From contig CAMEOC010000014.1 of assembly GCA_945929285.1 (NCBI GenBank), positions 1-10,589 of the forward strand: a stretch of DNA of 10,589 bases. Reading direction: 5' to 3'. The notes under the pieces were generated by a model. The model saw only the letters and a program-made list of their open reading frames with translations, did not search any database and was not told the origin of the DNA. Shown in pieces: positions 1-9,705 of the stretch. Both the position numbers and the translations under genes were made by a program. Within the stretch, counting starts at the first letter, position 1; the number at the start of each line of letters is the position of its first letter. Origin of the DNA: an uncultured Mucispirillum sp. (GTDB lineage Bacteria; Chrysiogenota; Deferribacteres; Deferribacterales; Mucispirillaceae).

Positions 1-1767
1 ATCAAAATGTTTTACAAAGTTTGTGGTGGCTATAAATACACCTTTATACCTATCAAGCTGAGCTAAAAACTCATTTATTTGGGAAACTTCCCAGCTGCGA
101 GTTGCCCCTCGCCTGTCTGCAAGCAGAGAATCTGCCTCATCAAATATCAATACTATATTGTATTTAGTGGCTTCTTTAAATGCTTTTGCAATTTTTGATT
201 CTGTTTCACCTACATATGGAGATAAAAAATCAGAAATAGATACTGTTTTATGGTCAAAGCCTGTTAATTCTGCTAAATAACGGGCAAATTCTGTTTTACC
301 TGTTCCCGGCTCTCCATGGAAAAGTATGGCACAGCGTTCTTTTTTATCCATCTTTTTATAATGCTCAATGTATGATTTAATATTATCTGCTGAAATATCT
401 GTATTTAAAAACTCCATACTAAAGTTTGATTTTGGCTCAAACTTTGAATTACTTTTCTTATTTCTTAAATTATTATGGCTTTCTAATATACTTTCCAGCA
501 TTTTTTTGCGTTTTTCTTTACTTCTATAACAACTTACAGCACTATCAACTGCTTTTGAAACAATACCAATTGGCAGGCTGTATTTTTTTGCATGTTCTTG
601 TATTTCCTGTTCCGTTAATATTTTTTCAATATCTATAATATTTTTTTGCCAAAGCATTGCATTTTCTTTTTCAGATAAATCAGGAAATTTTATAATATAG
701 TTAAAGCGCCTTAAAACAGATTTATCTGCAGATTTTAATGTGTTTGTAATAAATATGCAGGGTTTATCAATATCATCTAAATCTTTATTAAGTTTTGCTT
801 TTTTGCTGTCTTTCATAAAAGAAAACATACCTTCATTTAATAAATCATCTGCTTCATCAATAATTAATACTTCATCATATGATATACACCTTGAAGCAAT
901 CCATAAGTTTTCATTTTCATCAAGGATGTAAGGTATTTTATTAGAAGATTCTACCAAACTTTTTGCAAAAGAAGTTTTACCTGTGCCTGAAGCACCATAA
1001 AGCAGTATTTTTACATCTGGCACTTTTTTCATCATGGTTATGGCATTATTTCTTATTTGTTCATCAAGAAAAAAGCTTTCTATATCATAATCGCCATACT
1101 CTTTTGTGCATAGGTAGTCTAAAAGGCTGCTGCTGTCTGTGGATAAATATTCCATCATAGTTTCAGATAAGGCAAAATCATTATTCTTACTTATTATCTC
1201 ATTATACATAAGGGTGTTTTTATAGCTTAACAGCTTTTTTATATTGCTGTTTGGGATATTTAAAAAGTTTTCTATGGATTGGTCCCTGTCAAACTCATAT
1301 CCACAAAAATCCCATTCGTTAGCATTTCTTAAGTAAAAAAATGTAATAATTTCAAGTTCTTCAAGGTTTAAGTCAAATATTTTTTCAAGTTTTTTTACCT
1401 TTTTTAATACAAGATTTTTAGATTTTACAGTGTAGATATATTTTTCAATAATATCAAATATTTCTTCCTGCTCATAGTCTTCTAAATGGCTGCACTCTTT
1501 AGAAATCTTTTGATTTATAGGTAAATACTTAAAAGATTTTTTTGATATACGGCGAATTTCCCTACCTTCATCAATATATTTTTCAAGGGTTTTTTGAATA
1601 TGCCATAATACTTCTTTAGGTAAAATACTTATTATTAAAGACCAAAAATCATCACTTATTCTATAAAGGTCTATTTTGTTAAATGCGTTTTTAATGTAAT
1701 TTGTTACAATCACCTTTTCTTCTGCTGTAAAACCTTGAGTTTTCATTTCCCTTATTCCTCTTTTCAT
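1..1767 (-). CDS. Tandem AAA+ ATPase, C-terminus cut by window edge
   Basis: An open frame runs from ATG at 1767 to position 1 (589 codons, no stop), so the C-terminus lies outside. The start has a strong Shine-Dalgarno (AAGGAG, 1780-1775, 7 nt spacing). Residues 1-245 are charged, probably helical, and match no domain I recognise. Two complete AAA+ modules follow. Module 1 has Walker A GASGTGKT (258-265), Walker B VLIIDEADDL (300-309), sensor-1 FITNT (339-343) and paired arginines R353/R354. A polar Ser/Asn/Lys-rich linker (about 433-450) leads to module 2, with Walker A GEPGTGKT (485-492), YVGETESKIAKA (pore-loop/helix region), Walker B IVLIFDEAD (538-546) and sensor-1 IATTN (579-583). This is the classic AAA clade, so a hexameric remodelling or unfolding ATPase is likely; the substrate is unknown. 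It lies downstream of mcrC but behind a terminator, with its own copy of the shared palindrome, so it is probably a separate unit in the same regulon. ATPase call sure; role unknown. Confidence 0.9.
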   Translation of the reverse strand, partial: MKRGIREMKTQGFTAEEKVIVTNYIKNAFNKIDLYRISDDFWSLIISILPKEVLWHIQKTLEKYIDEGREIRRISKKSFKYLPINQKISKECSHLEDYEQEEIFDIIEKYIYTVKSKNLVLKKVKKLEKIFDLNLEELEIITFFYLRNANEWDFCGYEFDRDQSIENFLNIPNSNIKKLLSYKNTLMYNEIISKNNDFALSETMMEYLSTDSSSLLDYLCTKEYGDYDIESFFLDEQIRNNAITMMKKVPDVKILLYGASGTGKTSFAKSLVESSNKIPYILDENENLWIASRCISYDEVLIIDEADDLLNEGMFSFMKDSKKAKLNKDLDDIDKPCIFITNTLKSADKSVLRRFNYIIKFPDLSEKENAMLWQKNIIDIEKILTEQEIQEHAKKYSLPIGIVSKAVDSAVSCYRSKEKRKKMLESILESHNNLRNKKSNSKFEPKSNFSMEFLNTDISADNIKSYIEHYKKMDKKERCAILFHGEPGTGKTEFARYLAELTGFDHKTVSISDFLSPYVGETESKIAKAFKEATKYNIVLIFDEADSLLADRRGATRSWEVSQINEFLAQLDRYKGVFIATTNFVKHFD

Positions 1768-1806
1768 AAAAACACTCCTTTTATCTTTCATTTATATTCG
1801 CGTCTA

Positions 1807-1823
1807 CGACAATAGATGTCGCA
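1807..1823. promoter_or_regulatory. Palindromic operator-like element, copy 1
   Basis: The sequence is CGACAATAGATGTCGCA: perfect 5-bp arms CGACA (1807-1811) and TGTCG (1817-1821) around a 5-bp spacer. It sits 40 nt upstream of the tandem-AAA start codon, between the mcrC terminator and that gene. It matches copies 2 (read on the minus strand) and 3 at 14 of 17 positions each. I found no convincing -35/-10 pair for this gene; a TATAAA at 1791-1796 (minus strand) lacks a good -35, which would fall inside the palindrome. Binding by a dimeric regulator is inferred. Confidence 0.6.
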
Positions 1824-1880
1824 TAAAATAAATATTTTTAAAAGAGTGATAACATATTGATATTAAAGGAAATAAGGATA

Positions 1881-1931
1881 AAAAAGCATAACTTAATTTT
1901 AAATATTATTTTAAAACTAAGTATGCTTTTA
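1881..1931 (-). terminator. Hairpin terminator after mcrC
   Basis: A long A/T-rich inverted repeat pairs AAAAGCATA(A)CTTA (1882-1895, one unpaired A) with TAAGTATGCTTTT (1918-1930), and the stem may continue inward through TTTTAAA/TTTAAAA. Read on the minus strand the stem runs into CTTTTTTATCC, a short U-tract, which fits Rho-independent termination just past the mcrC stop. It separates mcrBC from the tandem-AAA gene. Confidence 0.65.
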
Positions 1932-1951
1932 ATTTTATAAAATAGAGTTTA

Positions 1952-2962
1952 TCATTTATTATCTTCAATTATTTTAGCAAAATTTTGCCAGTAGTTTTTA
2001 AATATTTTTTCTGATTTTGATATTTGCATTATAAACTGCTGCATATTATTAATATCATCACAATGTGGTATATTAAACTTATACTGGAAAATACATTCTT
2101 CTGTTTCTTTTGCATAATGAAACCTTAATTTTTTACAGTTAATTTCATTTTTAAATGATGGGTATAAAAACACACCTTTACCAAGCCCAAGTATATGCAT
2201 ATAGGATATTATCTGCATTCTATCTTCGATGGATATATTATTAATTTCTGGTGCATGTTTATATTTTGCATCCATAACTATGCTTAATTCTTTAGAATAA
2301 AAATCAGGATAAGCATGCCAGCTATCTTTTTCAAGCATAGATATTCTACCACTTTTTTCTTTATTTCTTGGGTGTTTAAAATCGCTTTCCAACTCTTTTA
2401 TGAGAGTATAGAGATATTCTTCCCACAGCCATGAAATATCAAACAATATACCGTATATTTTATTTTCTTCCCTGCCATATTTTAGCTCATCATCTTCCAT
2501 TAATATTTGCAAGCATATTTGCCTTAATGGTTCGTATTCATAGTAATAAAGGTATGGTAAAAAATGAAATACATTGTTTTTAGCTGTTGTATGCTCTAAA
2601 TTACTAAGGTTTATATTGAATACCTTTAAAAGCATATAATGAAGAAAATAATCTGTTTCATTATCTTTTGCAAACCTAGAACGAATAGAAAGCAGGGTAT
2701 TTTCTGTGCCTATAAACCCTGCAATATTATAAGTTGTTAATTTATTATCTGATATGGTAAATACACTGCTTGTTTCCACATCATCTTTTAATTTATCTTC
2801 ATTACAAAAGACTAAAAAACCATCTTTATTTTTTAAATCACCAATTTTTTTGCCAGATATTTTATAAAGTTCATTAAGAATATCTTGAGGATAATTTTCG
2901 CCAAATATTTCTTCTAACTTTACAGACTGGTTATTATCTGTAGTTGAGCCATAGAAAACCAT
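1952..2962 (-). CDS. mcrC: McrC-like restriction nuclease subunit (PD-(D/E)xK)
   Basis: The 336-residue protein is the likely DNA-cleaving partner of the McrB-like motor encoded just upstream. The nuclease core is visible in the second half: FDISWLWEEYLYTLI (174-188, with D175 and E181/E182), then AYPDFYSKELSIVMDAKYK (217-235), where D220, D231 and K233 form the PD-(D/E)xK-type site, followed by Q250 in an alpha-helix. The WLWEEYL...HPRN spacing is that of the McrC/LlaJI-like group. The N-terminal 160 residues would bind the McrB ring. Its ATG at 2962 is 11 nt after the mcrB stop, with a weak GGGT-type ribosome site, so translation may depend on mcrB. In the family the complex is a nucleotide-hydrolysis-driven restriction enzyme, often for methylated or otherwise modified DNA; the recognised modification cannot be read here. 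Length is normal and the frame looks intact. Confidence 0.88.
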   Translation of the reverse strand: MVFYGSTTDNNQSVKLEEIFGENYPQDILNELYKISGKKIGDLKNKDGFLVFCNEDKLKDDVETSSVFTISDNKLTTYNIAGFIGTENTLLSIRSRFAKDNETDYFLHYMLLKVFNINLSNLEHTTAKNNVFHFLPYLYYYEYEPLRQICLQILMEDDELKYGREENKIYGILFDISWLWEEYLYTLIKELESDFKHPRNKEKSGRISMLEKDSWHAYPDFYSKELSIVMDAKYKHAPEINNISIEDRMQIISYMHILGLGKGVFLYPSFKNEINCKKLRFHYAKETEECIFQYKFNIPHCDDINNMQQFIMQISKSEKIFKNYWQNFAKIIEDNK

Positions 2963-2973
2963 AGAGTACCCTA

Positions 2974-4758
2974 TTAGTTAGCTAATATTTCATTTACAGC
3001 ATTAAAATATGTGGTTTCTATATTAGAATAAATCTCGTCTGCATTTTTTTTGCCACGAACATATTCAAAAAACAAACCTTTTAGGTGATTATCCCATAAT
3101 TTCTTATATGCTTCTTCTGCTGTTAGATTATTATTTTCTAAATAACTATTTAATTTTAAAAAGTAAGATGCTCCAATTTGGTATATTTTCCCGAGGCCTT
3201 CAGCACTTGCAATAAAACTATTTAAAGCATTAAACACATTGTGCACACCAGCTATTTTAATATCTTTCAGTATTTCTTCTGCTGTTTCTTCTGGTGCAAT
3301 TTCTTTCCATGCAAAGCGTCTGCGTATGGCAAAATCTATGCTTTCCACACTTCTATCAATATTATTCATAGTGCCTATAATATATACATTTTCAGGTATA
3401 TAAAAACCCTTTGAAAAAATATCACCACTTTCTACTAAATTTTGATATTGAGTATCTACCATGCCTTTTTCCCCACGGTAGCCTGTATCAATTGCATAAA
3501 AAAGCTCACCTAATATTTTATTTATATCACCACGGTTTATTTCATCTATTATAAAGACAAAAGGAGTTTTATCGTCTTTATCTACTGTATAATAACTTGG
3601 AACTTGTAATTCTTTACCATATTTATCATGAAATAATCTAATAAAACCATATATATAAGTATGGCTTCCACCATAAGTAATACCTAGTGTACTATCAAAA
3701 GTTTTCATATTCTGACTTTCTTTATCAAGCTCTAAAAATTTTGTAGTATATAATAAATACCATTCTGCAATTTTATGCAAAGATGTAGAACTAATACCAT
3801 TATTACCACTAACAGTATCAACAATTATTTTTATTGTTTCATTATCTTGATTATATATTACAGTTTTTATAGGGGCAGCTGCATCTTTACTGCCTTTTAT
3901 ATTTTCTATTTTCATTGATTTATCTATAGTTTCTTTTAGTAAATATTCGCAAAATTCTTTTAATTTACTAATTAGTAACTTATTATAATCAATATTTATA
4001 TATATTGCCCTTTTGCAAAATTCTTTAAAAGTGCCGTCTTTTCTAACAAAACCATGGGAGTTATCTTCCTTTGTAACAGGTCTTATACCTTCTACAAAAT
4101 CTGTATAATCATATGATGGGTGAAACTGTACAAATTTATATTGGTATTCAAACTTTGCTTTTTTGGCTTCATCTTTTTCTATATTATCAAGTGTAATATC
4201 TTCCCCAAATATCATTTTTGCTGCTATTTGCTTAGCAAGGTATGTTTTACCAGTGCCAGGAACACCTGTTAAAATAAGATTGTGGTTGGTTGTAAGTAAA
4301 TCAAATATTTCATTTTTCATTTTATTAATCTCTTTTCTTATTATGTTATGTACTGTATTAATTATTAATTTATCGGCAGAATTAGATTCCTTTAATTGGT
4401 AAACTGCAAAAGGTCGTTTTGAAGCACCATATGCATTTTCTTCACTAAATGGAACATCATAATTTTCTAAAGATATAAAATTATCAAGATAAATATGACC
4501 TTCTATTATTTCATTATTTACTTTAAAAGCACCTTGATTACTACTTTTTGCATAACCAGCAAAAAAATATTTCTTATTTTTATTACTACCATATGCAATA
4601 ATAACTAAATCACCCTTTTTAATTTTATCGAATTCTCTTTTTATTGTTCCTGCTGGGTTATAATAAACTAATGCAACATGATATTCTGACATAATTTTTA
4701 AGTAGTAGTCCATTTTTCCACTACCGTCAACATTACTTCCAACTACAAATGTATTCAT
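2974..4758 (-). CDS. mcrB: McrB-like AAA+ restriction motor subunit
   Basis: The start is ATG at 4758, giving 594 residues. A TTG 18 nt further up is in frame but would place the Shine-Dalgarno GGAGGA (4767-4762) inside the gene, so it is rejected. Residues 1-120 contain a beta-rich segment (GDLVIIAYGSNKNKKYFFAGYA, 49-70) like PUA/EVE modified-base-binding domains and would supply target specificity. The AAA+ domain has Walker A GVPGTGKT (165-172), the McrB signature QFHPSYDYTDFVEGIRP (211-227), Walker B VFIIDEINRG (401-410) followed by INKILGELF, the family motif TMNNIDRS (463-470), and RRRF (479-482) with the arginine finger. About 150 residues (250-400) between strands form an insert larger than in compact McrB proteins. 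It should form a hexameric ring that drives the McrC nuclease on DNA; family members typically use GTP, but nucleotide choice is not visible here. Confidence 0.93.
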   Translation of the reverse strand: MNTFVVGSNVDGSGKMDYYLKIMSEYHVALVYYNPAGTIKREFDKIKKGDLVIIAYGSNKNKKYFFAGYAKSSNQGAFKVNNEIIEGHIYLDNFISLENYDVPFSEENAYGASKRPFAVYQLKESNSADKLIINTVHNIIRKEINKMKNEIFDLLTTNHNLILTGVPGTGKTYLAKQIAAKMIFGEDITLDNIEKDEAKKAKFEYQYKFVQFHPSYDYTDFVEGIRPVTKEDNSHGFVRKDGTFKEFCKRAIYINIDYNKLLISKLKEFCEYLLKETIDKSMKIENIKGSKDAAAPIKTVIYNQDNETIKIIVDTVSGNNGISSTSLHKIAEWYLLYTTKFLELDKESQNMKTFDSTLGITYGGSHTYIYGFIRLFHDKYGKELQVPSYYTVDKDDKTPFVFIIDEINRGDINKILGELFYAIDTGYRGEKGMVDTQYQNLVESGDIFSKGFYIPENVYIIGTMNNIDRSVESIDFAIRRRFAWKEIAPEETAEEILKDIKIAGVHNVFNALNSFIASAEGLGKIYQIGASYFLKLNSYLENNNLTAEEAYKKLWDNHLKGLFFEYVRGKKNADEIYSNIETTYFNAVNEILAN

Positions 4759-4789
4759 GTTTCCTCCAAAATTCAAATTTTATATTTTC

Positions 4790-4817
4790 ATTATATGCCA
4801 AAATATAATTATTTCAA
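4790..4817 (-). promoter_or_regulatory. Sigma70-type promoter of mcrBC
   Basis: On the minus strand there is a -35 TTGAAA (4817-4812), a 16-bp spacer and a -10 TATAAT (4795-4790), with initiation expected near 4783, about 25 nt before the start codon. The shared palindrome (4849-4865) is centred roughly 74 bp upstream of that start. That position suits an activator or looping repressor better than simple steric block. A second, weaker option (ATGTCG, 17 bp, TACAAT) would place the palindrome over its -35. Confidence 0.55.
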
Positions 4818-4848
4818 GGATAAATTAATTGTATAATATTTCACAATA

Positions 4849-4865
4849 TACGACATTTATTGTCA
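4849..4865. promoter_or_regulatory. Palindromic operator-like element, copy 2
   Basis: Read on the minus strand it is TGACAATAAATGTCGTA. The GACA and TGTC arms (4852-4855 and 4861-4864) are perfect inverted repeats with a 5-bp spacer. It matches copy 3 at 15 of 17 positions and copy 1 at 14 of 17. It lies upstream of the mcrB promoter and just past the stop of the small basic gene. Confidence 0.6.
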
Positions 4866-4886
4866 CACATATACATTATTATTGAT

Positions 4887-5216
4887 TTATATTTCTTCCT
4901 CACTTAGCCACCAGAAGTATTTTTTTTCTGGGTTGTTTTCATACTCTTTAGAGTAGGGAAATATGGTTATAGGTTGTTTTCTAAAAGTATCATAACATAT
5001 CATATATTCTTTTTCTTCAAAAATATATTTATAACGGCTTACTCTGTGGCTTTGTTTGTCTATTAGCTCCAGTGTACCCTTTTTTATTTGCGATGTTATT
5101 ATTTTAGGGTCCAGCACTTGCCCCAGCCTTTGCCTGCATGATTCTAAAAAGTGGGTATTTTGAGCTTTTTTCTTTGATGTTCTTCTTTTTGGTTTTGCTT
5201 TACTAAATTTTATCAT
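4887..5216 (-). CDS. Small basic protein of unknown function, possibly RelE/BECR-like
   Basis: This 109-residue frame begins at ATG 5216 behind a strong ribosome site (AGGGAGGG). I do not recognise a named family. Residues 1-20 are a very basic tail (KAKPKRRTSKKKA); an alpha-helical stretch follows (HFLESCRQRLG, 22-32, then 36-46); the end is beta-rich, with HRVSRYKYIF (57-66), YMICYDTFRKQPITIFPY (71-88) and an aromatic finish KYFWW (99-103). The layout of helix, charged loop, R-x-x-R-Y and a final strand 'vxYDxxxxxxITIFP' recalls small ribonucleases of the BECR/RelE type and DUF4258-like proteins, but this is inference. No antitoxin partner is visible beside it. It precedes mcrBC on the same strand (128-nt gap, no terminator seen) and shares the palindrome region with the divergent ADP-ribosylglycohydrolase gene. 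It could be an accessory, a DNA-binding factor or a toxin of the defence block. Confidence 0.75.
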   Translation of the reverse strand: MIKFSKAKPKRRTSKKKAQNTHFLESCRQRLGQVLDPKIITSQIKKGTLELIDKQSHRVSRYKYIFEEKEYMICYDTFRKQPITIFPYSKEYENNPEKKYFWWLSEEEI

Positions 5217-5265
5217 ATTCCCTCCCTAAAATTTATACCATTTATTTGTATATACTTTTTTGTAA

Positions 5266-5282
5266 TGAAAATAAATGTCGCA
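5266..5282. promoter_or_regulatory. Palindromic operator-like element, copy 3 (divergent region)
   Basis: TGAAAATAAATGTCGCA has an intact right half TGTCGCA, while the left arm carries one change (GAAA for GACA). It matches copy 2 (minus-strand reading) at 15 of 17 positions. It lies 50 nt upstream of the small basic gene and 70 nt upstream of the ADP-ribosylglycohydrolase gene, so one bound dimer could affect both. No clear promoter is assigned; TTGATA (5306-5311), 17 bp, TAAATT (5329-5334) is possible for the plus strand but leaves almost no leader. Confidence 0.5.
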
Positions 5283-5351
5283 CAGATAATTTATATAAAA
5301 ACTTATTGATAAAATATATTACACAGGATAAATTAAACAAGGAGAAAAATT

Positions 5352-6149
5352 ATGATTGGTGCAATTATTGGGGATATTATAGGCTCCAGGTTTGAAAGGC
5401 AGAATATAAAAACGAAAGATTTTGAATTATTTCACCCAAGGTGCAGGTTTACTGATGATAGTGTTATGAGCCTTGCAGTAGCTAAATCTTTACTTAAATG
5501 TGATAATGATTATACAAATTTCAATAATATTGCCATAAATACCATACAAAATATAGGCAGAATATACCCAAACTGTGGTTTTGGACTTGGTTTTTACAGG
5601 TGGTTAGTTAGTGAAAACCCACAGCCATACGGCAGTTTTGGAAATGGTGCTGCCATGCGGGTAAGCCCTTGTGCTTATGCTACAAAATCATTGGAAGATG
5701 CCCTGTCTTTAGCCCAAAAAGTAACTATTATAAGCCATAACCATATTGAAGGTATAAAGGGAGCAAAATCTGTTACAGCAGCTGTATTTTTAGCACTGCA
5801 AAAAGATAGTATGGAAAATGTAAAAAAGCATATTATGCAAAACTATTATAATATTGATTTTACCCTAGATGAAATAAGGCAAAGCTATAATTTTAATATG
5901 AGCTGCCAAAATTCTGTACCGCAGGCTATGCAGGCTTTTTTTGAATCAAATAGTTTTGAAGATGCTATACGAAATGCCATATCCATTGGCAGAGATAGTG
6001 ATACTATTGGTGCAATAACAAGCTCCATAGCAGCAGCATATTATGGGGTGCCAAAAGATATAAGAGAAACAGCTTTAAATTACCTAGATGATAGATTAAA
6101 AGAAATATTGGCGGAGTTTGAAAGAAGGTTTATAAATTGTAATAAATAA
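5352..6149 (+). CDS. DraG-type ADP-ribosylglycohydrolase
   Basis: The 265-residue protein belongs to the ADP-ribosylglycohydrolase (DraG/ARH) family, which removes ADP-ribose from protein side chains, nucleic acids or small molecules using a binuclear metal centre. Visible signatures are GAIIGDIIGSRFE (3-15), FTDDSVMSLAVA (33-44) with metal ligands D35/D36, GNGAAMRVSP (97-106), ISHNHIEGIKGA (127-138) and GRDSDTIGAITSSIA (213-227) with D215/D217/T218. The length is typical for a full single-domain enzyme and all metal-site motifs are present, so it should be active. Its start has GGAG 7 nt upstream. It is divergent from the defence block with palindrome copy 3 between them, and is followed by nfeD 53 nt later with no terminator seen, so read-through into the membrane-protein pair is likely. 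No ADP-ribosyltransferase is encoded in the window, so the substrate is unknown. Confidence 0.9.
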   Translation: MIGAIIGDIIGSRFERQNIKTKDFELFHPRCRFTDDSVMSLAVAKSLLKCDNDYTNFNNIAINTIQNIGRIYPNCGFGLGFYRWLVSENPQPYGSFGNGAAMRVSPCAYATKSLEDALSLAQKVTIISHNHIEGIKGAKSVTAAVFLALQKDSMENVKKHIMQNYYNIDFTLDEIRQSYNFNMSCQNSVPQAMQAFFESNSFEDAIRNAISIGRDSDTIGAITSSIAAAYYGVPKDIRETALNYLDDRLKEILAEFERRFINCNK

Positions 6150-8023: not shown

Positions 8024-8479
8024 ATGCATGAAAAAGATATTGAAAAGAACAGGGAATATTTTAAAACATTCCTTGCTACCCAAAAGTTAAGGCTTACAAC
8101 TCAACGGCAGATTATATTTGATGAGTTTATGAAATATGATTCGCATATTGATATTGATAAGCTTTATGCTATTACTAAAGAGATAGATTCTAATATTGGG
8201 CTTGCTACAATTTACAGAACTATAAAGCTTTTAATTGAAGCAGGTATAGTGCGGGAAGTGCGTTTTGGTGATGGCAGAAGTTATTATGAAGTGATTATGG
8301 GTAAAATACACCACGACCACCTAATATGTGTGGTATGTGGAAAAAATATAGAATTTAACGACCCAGATTTAGAGGCTATGCAGGAGCAGATTGCAGCTAA
8401 ATATAAATTTAAGCTGACAAACCACTATATGAACCTTTTTGGTGTATGTGAAAAATGCCGCTCTCTTGGTATGGGTTAA
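8024..8479 (+). CDS. fur: Fur family ferric uptake regulator
   Basis: The 151-residue metal-dependent repressor has the Fur layout. A winged-helix domain (about 10-90) includes LRLTTQRQIIFDEF (22-35) and the recognition helix GLATIYRTIKLL (59-70). The hinge leads to the metal-binding domain with KIHHDHLICVVCGKNIEF (94-111): H96, H97, H99 and the CxxC pair C102/C105. Then come D115/E117, the Fur-like EQIAAKYKFKLTNH ending at H134, and a second CxxC (C142/C145). Glu rather than Asp at E117 and the close resemblance to enterobacterial Fur in 117-134 favour Fur over PerR; Zur or Mur activity cannot be excluded by eye. The start has TTGGAG 6 nt upstream. The 208-bp upstream region is very A/T-rich; TTGCAA (7974-7979), 17 bp, TATTTT (7997-8002) is a weak promoter option, and I see no clear Fur box. 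It is the first gene of a five-gene operon. Confidence 0.93.
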   Translation: MHEKDIEKNREYFKTFLATQKLRLTTQRQIIFDEFMKYDSHIDIDKLYAITKEIDSNIGLATIYRTIKLLIEAGIVREVRFGDGRSYYEVIMGKIHHDHLICVVCGKNIEFNDPDLEAMQEQIAAKYKFKLTNHYMNLFGVCEKCRSLGMG

Positions 8480-8494
8480 GTATTGGAGTATTTA

Positions 8495-9067
8495 ATGAAA
8501 AAGTTATTAATTTTATTTACAGCTTTAATTATGGCTGTAACTTACAGCACAAGCTTTGCTCAAAGCAACCCAAAAGTATTAATTGATACTTCCATGGGCC
8601 AAATAGAAGCAGAACTATATCAAAAACAAGCACCTATTACTGTGCAGAATTTTTTAGCTTATGTTAATAATAAATTTTATGACGGACTTGTTTTTCACCG
8701 TGTTATTGATGGTTTTATGATTCAAGGCGGTGGCATGAATGCTGAATTAAAAGAAAAAGCTACATTAAACCCTATAAAAATTGAAAGTGATAACGGCCTT
8801 AAAAACACTAGAGGCACTTTAGCAATGGCTAGAACTCAAGTGCCAGATTCTGCTACAAGCCAGTTTTTTATAAACCTGGTGGATAACCCATTTTTAGATT
8901 ATAAAGCACCTACTGTGGCAGGCTACGGCTATGCTGTATTTGGTAAAGTTACTAAAGGAATGGATGTGGTTGATAAAATAGCAAAAGTAAAAACAGGCAG
9001 CAAAGGGTTCCATGAAAATGTGCCTTTAACACCTGTTGTAATAAAAAGCATAAAGGTAATAAAATAA
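8495..9067 (+). CDS. ppiA: Periplasmic cyclophilin-type peptidyl-prolyl isomerase
   Basis: The start is ATG 8495 with GGAG at 8485-8488; a TTG at 8483 would put that site inside the gene. The 190-residue product begins with a Sec signal peptide: KK, a hydrophobic core LLILFTALIMAV, and a likely cleavage after SFA (22). The mature part is one cyclophilin domain with FHRVIDGFMIQGGG (67-80; R69, F74, M75, Q77), RGTLAMART (106-114), DSATSQFFINLVD (118-130; Q123, F124) and GYAVFGKVTKGMDVVDKI (145-162). It should catalyse cis-trans proline isomerisation in the periplasm, assisting folding of exported proteins. It follows fur by 15 nt and overlaps the next gene by one base (TAATG). Its domain is about two-thirds identical by eye to the next protein, pointing to duplication. 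The symbol reflects the periplasmic type. Confidence 0.92.
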   Translation: MKKLLILFTALIMAVTYSTSFAQSNPKVLIDTSMGQIEAELYQKQAPITVQNFLAYVNNKFYDGLVFHRVIDGFMIQGGGMNAELKEKATLNPIKIESDNGLKNTRGTLAMARTQVPDSATSQFFINLVDNPFLDYKAPTVAGYGYAVFGKVTKGMDVVDKIAKVKTGSKGFHENVPLTPVVIKSIKVIK

Positions 9068-9705
9068 TGGCAGAAGAAAAAGATACTACTAAAAAAACAG
9101 CAGGCAAAAAAACTACTGCAAAAAAAAGCACTGCTAAAAAAACAACTGAAAAAAAAGAAAAAACACCAAAAGCTAAAACTGCTAAATCACCTAAAAAAGC
9201 AGGAAGCAATATTAACATACTTATGAAAACAAATATTGGTGAAATAGAGCTGGAATTATACCCAGATAAAGCACCGATTACTGTTGAAAACTTTGTTTCA
9301 TATATTAATGATAAATTTTTTGACGGCCTTGTTTTCCACCGTGTTATTGACGGCTTTATGATTCAAGGTGGTGGGTTTGATGACAGCCTGCACCAAAAAG
9401 AAACTAAAGCACCAATTAAAATAGAAAGTGATAACGGCCTTAAAAATGACCGTGGCACCATTGCTATGGCTCGCACCAACGACCCAAACTCTGCCACAAG
9501 CCAGTTTTTCATAAACCTAGTGGATAACGACTTTTTAGGCTTTGAATCTGCCACTATGGCAGGATACGGCTATGCTGTATTTGGTAAAGTTACAAAAGGT
9601 ATGGATTTGGTTGATAAAATAGGCACTGTTCCAACAGGCTCAATAGGCTATATGCAGGATGTGCCAAAATATTTAATACAAATTGAAACAATCACTTTAT
9701 TATAA
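9067..9705 (+). CDS. Cyclophilin with histone-H1-like Lys-rich N-terminal tail
   Basis: The 212-residue protein has no signal peptide. Residues 1-47 are a Lys/Thr/Ala/Ser-rich tail with a five-residue rhythm (KKTTA, KKSTA, KKTTE, KKEKT at 14-33, then AKSPKKAG), similar to bacterial histone-H1-like and AlgP-type tails. Residues 50-212 are a complete cyclophilin domain with FHRVIDGFMIQGGG (90-103; R92, F97, Q100), RGTIAMART, NSATSQFFINLVD and GYAVFGKVTKGMDLVDKI. It is presumably the cytoplasmic counterpart of the preceding periplasmic isomerase; the tail probably binds nucleic acid or ribosomes (inferred). Its ATG overlaps the previous stop by one base, so translation is probably coupled. Both the frame and the codon style of the domain match its neighbour, including stretches almost identical at DNA level (for example around 8925-8965 and 9563-9605), indicating a fairly recent duplication or gene conversion. 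Confidence 0.92.
   Translation: MAEEKDTTKKTAGKKTTAKKSTAKKTTEKKEKTPKAKTAKSPKKAGSNINILMKTNIGEIELELYPDKAPITVENFVSYINDKFFDGLVFHRVIDGFMIQGGGFDDSLHQKETKAPIKIESDNGLKNDRGTIAMARTNDPNSATSQFFINLVDNDFLGFESATMAGYGYAVFGKVTKGMDLVDKIGTVPTGSIGYMQDVPKYLIQIETITLL
9106..9165 (+). repeat. Degenerate 15-nt coding repeats, A-rich
   Basis: Four units of about 15 nt (AAAAAAACTACTGCA-like) encode the KKTTA/KKSTA/KKTTE/KKEKT series in the tail of the second cyclophilin. Poly-A runs of 7-8 bases, such as 9120-9127, make the stretch prone to slippage and unit gain or loss. Confidence 0.7.

Follow-up and report, generated by a model that had tools for sequence, protein, structure and literature searches.

A palindromic promoter box at DNA-repair and defence genes of Mucispirillum and its candidate WYL-type regulator

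Three related elements in a defence block

The DNA analysed here (the window, 10,589 nucleotides) is an entire contig, C14, of a Mucispirillum-type genome of the Deferribacterota (G000), whose assembly comprises 1.42 Mb in 280 contigs and is 57% complete. It carries a block of defence genes in which a tandem-AAA ATPase gene, a pair of McrBC genes and a gene for a small basic protein lie on one strand and an ADP-ribosylglycohydrolase gene on the other (Table 1). The second AAA domain of the tandem-AAA product resembles IetA; as only this domain does so, we rejected an IetAS identity for the gene, and by eye no subtilase-like open reading frame (ORF) was found near its homologues in two further loci (L273 and L274). 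Elsewhere in the window, outside the defence block, are a Fur-family regulator gene (8024-8479), which we also weighed as a candidate for the regulator, and, at 8483-9705, two adjoining peptidyl-prolyl isomerase-like genes (family assigned by eye), which show 74-77% DNA likeness over two stretches and have the appearance of a tandem duplication.

Table 1 Features of the defence block and its promoter elements, in window coordinates
Feature	Position	Strand	Remark
Tandem-AAA ATPase gene	1..1767	-	Truncated by contig end; ORF listed to 1791
-10-like TATAAA	1791..1796	-	9 nt downstream of box 1 core
Box 1	1805..1823 (17-mer 1806-1822)	-	Exact core; homologues' promoters also boxed
McrC-like gene	1952..2962	-	Pfam McrBC
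McrB-like gene	2974..4758	-	ORF could begin at TTG 4776
-10-like TATTAT	4833..4838	-	11 nt downstream of box 2 core
Box 2	4849..4867 (17-mer 4850-4866)	-	Precedes mcrB; single mismatch in one arm; intact in L159
Small basic protein gene, 109 aa	4887..5216	-	Family searches found no family
-10-like TATATA, small gene	5249..5254	-	10 nt from box 3 core
Box 3	5264..5282 (17-mer 5265-5281)		Between divergent promoters; one arm decayed; intact in L159
-10-like TATATA, ADP-ribosylglycohydrolase gene	5292..5297	+	10 nt from box 3 core
ADP-ribosylglycohydrolase (DraG-type) gene	5352..6149	+	Pfam PF03747

An earlier note on this DNA had described three copies of one 17-bp element lying only between genes. 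Their placement, strand included, and their mutual likeness (14, 14 and 15 of 17 positions in the pairwise comparisons) proved correct, and all three are intergenic; the core of box 1 lies 38 bp upstream of the likely tandem-AAA start (ATG 1767-1765). The CGACA-N5-TGTCG palindrome attributed to all of them is exact in copy 1 and inexact in the other two, one arm being TGACA in copy 2 (one mismatch) and mostly lost in copy 3 (TGAAA). In a relative (L159 in G005), a syntenic block carries an intact box at each of the three homologous places: ahead of the tandem-AAA gene, ahead of mcrB and in the gap between the small and DraG-type genes. With the third site intact there, copy 3 most plausibly represents a box that has decayed. 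As the note had found by eye, the window holds no fourth copy at up to three mismatches. The corresponding scan gives 3 matches against 0.41 expected, with 1 of 200 shuffles reaching 3, a statistic that is circular because the pattern was derived from the same copies. In a repeat search that yielded at least 60 direct-repeat families, the element was absent from the 20 largest.

The box in promoters and its candidate targets

Loose patterns do not separate the element from background across G000: the 17-mer at up to two mismatches gave 10 matches versus 14 for the reversed control, and the arm pattern at up to three mismatches gave 86 versus 60 per strand, no clear excess. Gene context was read for the two-mismatch matches on C33 and C48, outside the window, both of which are intragenic (those on C42, C68 and C141 were left out of this reading). 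Clean sites do occur elsewhere in this genome, at C25:1126 (WYL/comEC), C59:4601 (YfbR-like/Hpt) and C107:2239 (some 45 bp ahead of an AddB-like gene), and since these and the intact L159 boxes are independent of the origin of the pattern, the copies exceed chance. The refined box is RCGWC-N7-GWCGY, and for counting we used the strict pattern RCGWCA-N5-TGWCGY. In five genomes the site of the WYL gene described below keeps RCGWC-N7-GWCGY and loses the inner A and T, so that the essential form is probably CGWC-N7-GWCG.

The earlier note had named scatter of equally good matches through coding regions as a sign against a regulatory role. The nine Mucispirillum genomes that carry the WYL gene hold 56 strict boxes, of which three were unlocated (two in G008, one in G002) and 52 distinct ones were analysed; a single one of these lies inside an ORF (L160), in loci where ORFs of at least 100 aa cover 82% of the DNA (binomial P ~4e-37), and for 51 of the 52 an ORF begins no more than 160 bp away. 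The box appears to occupy the position where a -35 element would be. Averaged by family, a -10-like hexamer follows it by 8-10 nt in 62% of 17 families (50 promoters) versus 23% in shuffles that preserve single-base composition only, and none of 1,000 shuffles reached the observed value in any window; the promoter rows were picked by hand and their start sites are unmapped. The test covers 50 of 64 rows, the 14 omitted by hand being six on the Hpt side, two on the comEC side, three further SNF2, WYL or YfbR rows, a spurious ORF, an intragenic box and an mcrB fragment. We also considered a mobile repeat and rejected it, because the sites are in promoters and conserve their arms but not their spacers or flanks. 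Its position, its conservation and the one gene that co-occurs with it show that the element is real, one instance of what these comparisons mark as a genome-wide operator.

Its distribution suggests a candidate regulon of recA, addB, a YfbR-type deoxynucleotidase gene and strain-varying defence genes (tandem-AAA, McrBC, HsdM, HKD-SNF2 and GmrSD). For DNA-damage targets we checked recA and addB, leaving out recJ, dnaG, didA and bapE. Of the eight WYL-positive Mucispirillum genomes whose recA promoter is readable, seven have a strict box there and G002 has a site with one mismatch; the recA start of G000 is truncated by a contig end, and the recA promoter of G006, a genome without the WYL gene, has no box match. 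That promoter (G006:C1, locus L090, in a one-contig genome) carries an altered palindrome, GTGATA-N5-TATCGC, either a decayed box or another site. Outside the genus, recA is boxed in 2 of the 7 WYL-positive genomes examined (G026 and G037; the recA promoters of G036, G039, G040 and G042-G044 stand outside this count), which tells against the interpretation developed below. An addB-like gene is boxed in eight genomes, seven strictly and G009 with one mismatch, and at the one locus fully read (L267) it is directly followed by a RecB/AddA-like gene, so named from NCBIfam matches that all fall below their curated cut-offs. The YfbR-like/Hpt box is found in eight Mucispirillum genomes.

Conservation at orthologues, which the earlier note had proposed as a check, is complete for one defence gene and partial for another. 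A box stands upstream of all six tandem-AAA homologues of the genus (E < 1e-90; fragments G009:C166 and G017:C115 left out), and at 5 of the 10 mcrB homologues examined, the five without one counting against the interpretation developed below; among the boxed five, the window's own has one mismatch and another is a fragment. One tandem-AAA homologue (G007:C12:7132-8915, L230 and L273) is split over two ORFs, with one TGA and three TAA codons within the second piece, and retains its box. G000 also encodes a second McrB homologue (G000:C4:9950-11542, L272) with 44% identity and no box.

The remaining defence targets vary by strain. The DraG-type gene is boxed in G004 and G005 and has a decayed box in G000; HsdM is boxed in G004, G005 and G007, HKD-SNF2 in G003, G005 and G009, endonuclease I in G007 and G009, and GmrSD together with a type II methyltransferase in G009. 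For HsdM, HKD-SNF2 and endonuclease I the family test was made on one homologue each, and HsdM in G004 and G007, HKD-SNF2 in G005 and G009 and endonuclease I in G009 were named by eye from N-terminal likeness. Genes without a family are also among the boxed Mucispirillum genes. One such gene of approximately 484 aa is boxed in G003, G004 and G008 (L143, L165 and L178; the G008 likeness by eye), has no Pfam or PADLOC family and is a candidate repair or defence gene. Beyond the genus, boxes precede Cas1 (G026), SspB/DUF4007 and ADP-ribosylglycohydrolase genes (both G036), and AddA- or AddB-like genes in the vicinity of the WYL gene (G021 and G023); several others there are intragenic or precede unrelated genes.

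A candidate WYL-type regulator

The candidate regulator is a WYL protein (Pfam WYL), a single chain of 304 aa encoded at G000:C25:160-1074 on the minus strand; its gene neighbours comEC at each locus read, namely in G000, G001 and G005, and a scan of genome contigs for relatives returned eight loci, two of them short partial matches. Among 45 genomes of the order, the strict box is present in 22 of 22 with the WYL gene and in 2 of 23 without (G020 and G041; Fisher P = 7e-11), after 17 of 17 versus 1 of 22 in an earlier, overlapping set. Raw counts alone are uninformative (109 boxes versus 105 reversed-control matches in WYL-positive genomes, 4 versus 43 in WYL-negative ones), since in WYL-positive genomes the control occurs nearly as often as the box. 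By presence, the control is found in 21 of 22 WYL-positive and 14 of 23 WYL-negative genomes (P = 0.01), a far weaker association; restricting the comparison to genomes that contain the control pattern leaves the box in 21 of 21 versus 1 of 14. Weak WYL matches (G024, G032, G035 and G038) were scored absent; rescoring them as present gives 22 of 26 versus 2 of 19. Of the two exceptions, G020 has an intragenic box, and G041, 92% complete, has three strict boxes and no WYL match, which counts against a WYL regulator; a contig may be missing, the regulator may have been lost or another factor may act there. Shared descent alone is insufficient to explain the association, because presence and absence are interleaved, both in the genus (G006) and in families f3, f4, f6 and f7.

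The WYL gene is itself a candidate target. Twenty-four of 25 WYL loci were examined (L304 is without the motif used for detection), and a core box lies within 300 bp upstream in 19 of them, against 0.03 expected from shuffles and one downstream; the five without an upstream box are a further point against the interpretation. In Mucispirillum, all nine WYL genes have a box of the core form. These comparative data point to a single WYL-type regulator outside the window acting on an inverted repeat, much as the earlier note had surmised, and neither of the two outcomes that the note had named as refuting was seen.

Although a PDB search with the single WYL sequence gave no match, a profile of 54 sequences ranked DriD first among solved structures (6.5e-13), followed by PafBC (1e-10). 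The predicted structure (pLDDT 85, pTM 0.65) places a winged helix-turn-helix, a helical linker, a WYL domain and a C-terminal domain in one chain, with helices at 9-52, 68-108 and 128-144, a barrel at 149-198 and a C-terminal part to 303. Its fold matches follow the same order, with DriD (1.7e-13) and PafBC (4.4e-10) ahead of CapW (3.7e-8) and BrxR (1.2e-7); VIA-align also ranks DriD first. The rmsd to DriD is 3.5-3.8 over the C-terminal part and approximately 12 over the 280-290 residues aligned, so the domains are placed differently from those of DriD. In the helix-turn-helix, R40, A42, Q43, R44 and Y45 are invariant in 54 of 54 sequences. Arginines of the WYL domain are reported to be needed in PafB (PMC11804915); aligned by eye, two of the three ssDNA-binding positions are R186 and R189 here, and the third, equivalent to PafB R214, is Tyr192. 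Position 189 is arginine in only 19 of the 54 relatives and position 192 in one; the tyrosine and the variability of position 189 are points against the interpretation. The candidate seems not to be a local defence repressor of the BrxR/CapW type, the example given in the note: profile and fold are nearest to DriD, the candidate regulon includes recA and addB, and the gene is not encoded locally, lying on C25 while the window is C14.

Proposed mechanism, alternatives and known systems

We propose, with a probability of about 0.65, that the box is the operator of a DriD-type HTH-WYL factor encoded elsewhere in the genome, which would co-induce recombination repair and restriction/defence on a damage signal. 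This reading is built on comparison, namely of the box, its genome-wide targets, the WYL co-occurrence, the -10 spacing, the nearest fold and a matching published site; from it we infer direct binding and dimerisation, such that a WYL dimer would bind the CGWC-N7-GWCG half-sites flanking a weak -35. With a damage signal held in its WYL domain, probably single-stranded DNA (ssDNA), the protein would recruit RNA polymerase; both the ligand, perhaps ssDNA, and the preference for activation over repression would follow the likeness to DriD. The repair genes so induced would be recA, addB (probably sharing an operon with addA), the YfbR-type deoxynucleotidase gene, the WYL gene itself and perhaps comEC, and the defence genes would be whatever the strain carries, here tandem-AAA, McrBC, the small gene and ADP-ribosylglycohydrolase.

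The same protein and box could also work in the opposite sense, as a repressor that masks the -35 until damage or infection dislodges it. CapW and BrxR are reported to be WYL repressors on palindromes in their own promoters, the Acinetobacter BrxR site overlapping a predicted -35 (PMC9122588, PMC9122589, PMC9122601), and the box seems to sit at the expected -35 position; yet fold and profile are closer to the activators DriD and PafBC, and the site is that reported for DriD, which activates (PMC12340889), so we consider repression unlikely. It is more doubtful still that another dimeric regulator owns the box and that the WYL link is indirect, for example because both are retained in the same lifestyle. 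Association differs from binding, G041 is boxed without a WYL match, and, owing to base composition, WYL-positive genomes are also somewhat richer in the control pattern; these points are set against the boxes upstream of most WYL genes and the match to the published site of the nearest studied relative. Chance resemblance, or a functionless dispersed repeat, would fit the loose patterns that match the reversed control as often, but is contradicted by intergenic position, conservation at homologous sites and co-occurrence with one gene, and we give it hardly any weight.

An SOS box bound by LexA would suit recA and addB as typical DNA-damage genes, and 8 of the 10 Mucispirillum genomes have a lexA match that exceeds the family cut-off. 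The eight lexA promoters, however, carry TGTTCTANTGAACA and not the CGWC box; G006 and G011 have lexA and no box; and in the 29 genomes examined the 300 bp preceding recA contain no GTTCN4GAAC. On these grounds we rejected a LexA operator identity as extremely improbable. TGTTCN4GAACA occurs at lexA in all eight genomes that have the gene, with further matches among them in G004 only (one some 200 bp ahead of a uvrD-like gene, the other intragenic); G002 and G008, without a lexA match, have a single match each, located elsewhere. LexA may have a wider regulon under a looser pattern.

If a DriD-type activator is indeed at work, a broader picture becomes conceivable, which we hold tentatively and at somewhat less than even odds. 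Such an activator, not LexA, would command Mucispirillum recA, with LexA controlling little beyond its own promoter; a shared ssDNA alarm would induce RecA, AddAB and a rotating set of defence genes, new ones joining by gain of a box. Damage or invading DNA would then raise repair and immunity as a single regulon, costly restriction and defence would be timed by the alarm of recombination repair, and unannotated genes behind a box would become candidates for either function. WYL regulators appear in the sources cited here as DNA-damage activators (DriD, PafBC) or as repressors of single systems (BrxR, CapW), and here one seems to serve both roles genome-wide. A literature search, mostly without subscription papers, returned no description of such a regulon for Deferribacterota, and for Mucispirillum together with LexA only a review on plant phytochemicals and gut microbiota.

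Compared with known systems, the arrangement recalls the LexA/SOS response in that recA would come under a damage-controlled operator, although the LexA of Mucispirillum has a different box. It shares with BrxR and CapW the HTH-WYL protein type and palindromes in defence-gene promoters; those repressors are tied to the system they control, whereas here a single gene is matched by boxes genome-wide and at core repair genes. In mycobacteria, PafBC is described as a WYL protein that activates DNA-damage genes, recA among them, next to a LexA system (PMC6789036, PMC11804915), and the Mucispirillum protein is likewise a WYL protein with recA among its candidate targets and LexA alongside; unlike PafBC, a heterodimer or fusion with a non-palindromic motif, it is a single chain paired with a palindromic box. 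DriD is described in a preprint (PMC12340889) as a SOS-independent DNA-damage activator of Caulobacter that is switched on by ssDNA and reads ATACGAC(X)7GTCGTAT mainly through arginine-guanine contacts, at sites that overlie the -35 and keep a fixed spacing to the -10; recA is said there to be DriD-regulated, and the site at driD to drive a divergent operon and not driD itself. Its reported targets (didA, bapE, recJ, dnaG and the operon beside driD) differ from the addB and many restriction/defence genes here, the proteins are only 14-17% identical and tyrosine replaces one of the ssDNA arginines here, but the two share a divergent gene at the regulator's own site, and the CGAC-N7-GTCG core of the DriD site, with its 7-bp gap, matches the RCGWC-N7-GWCGY that the present comparisons put forward as an operator.
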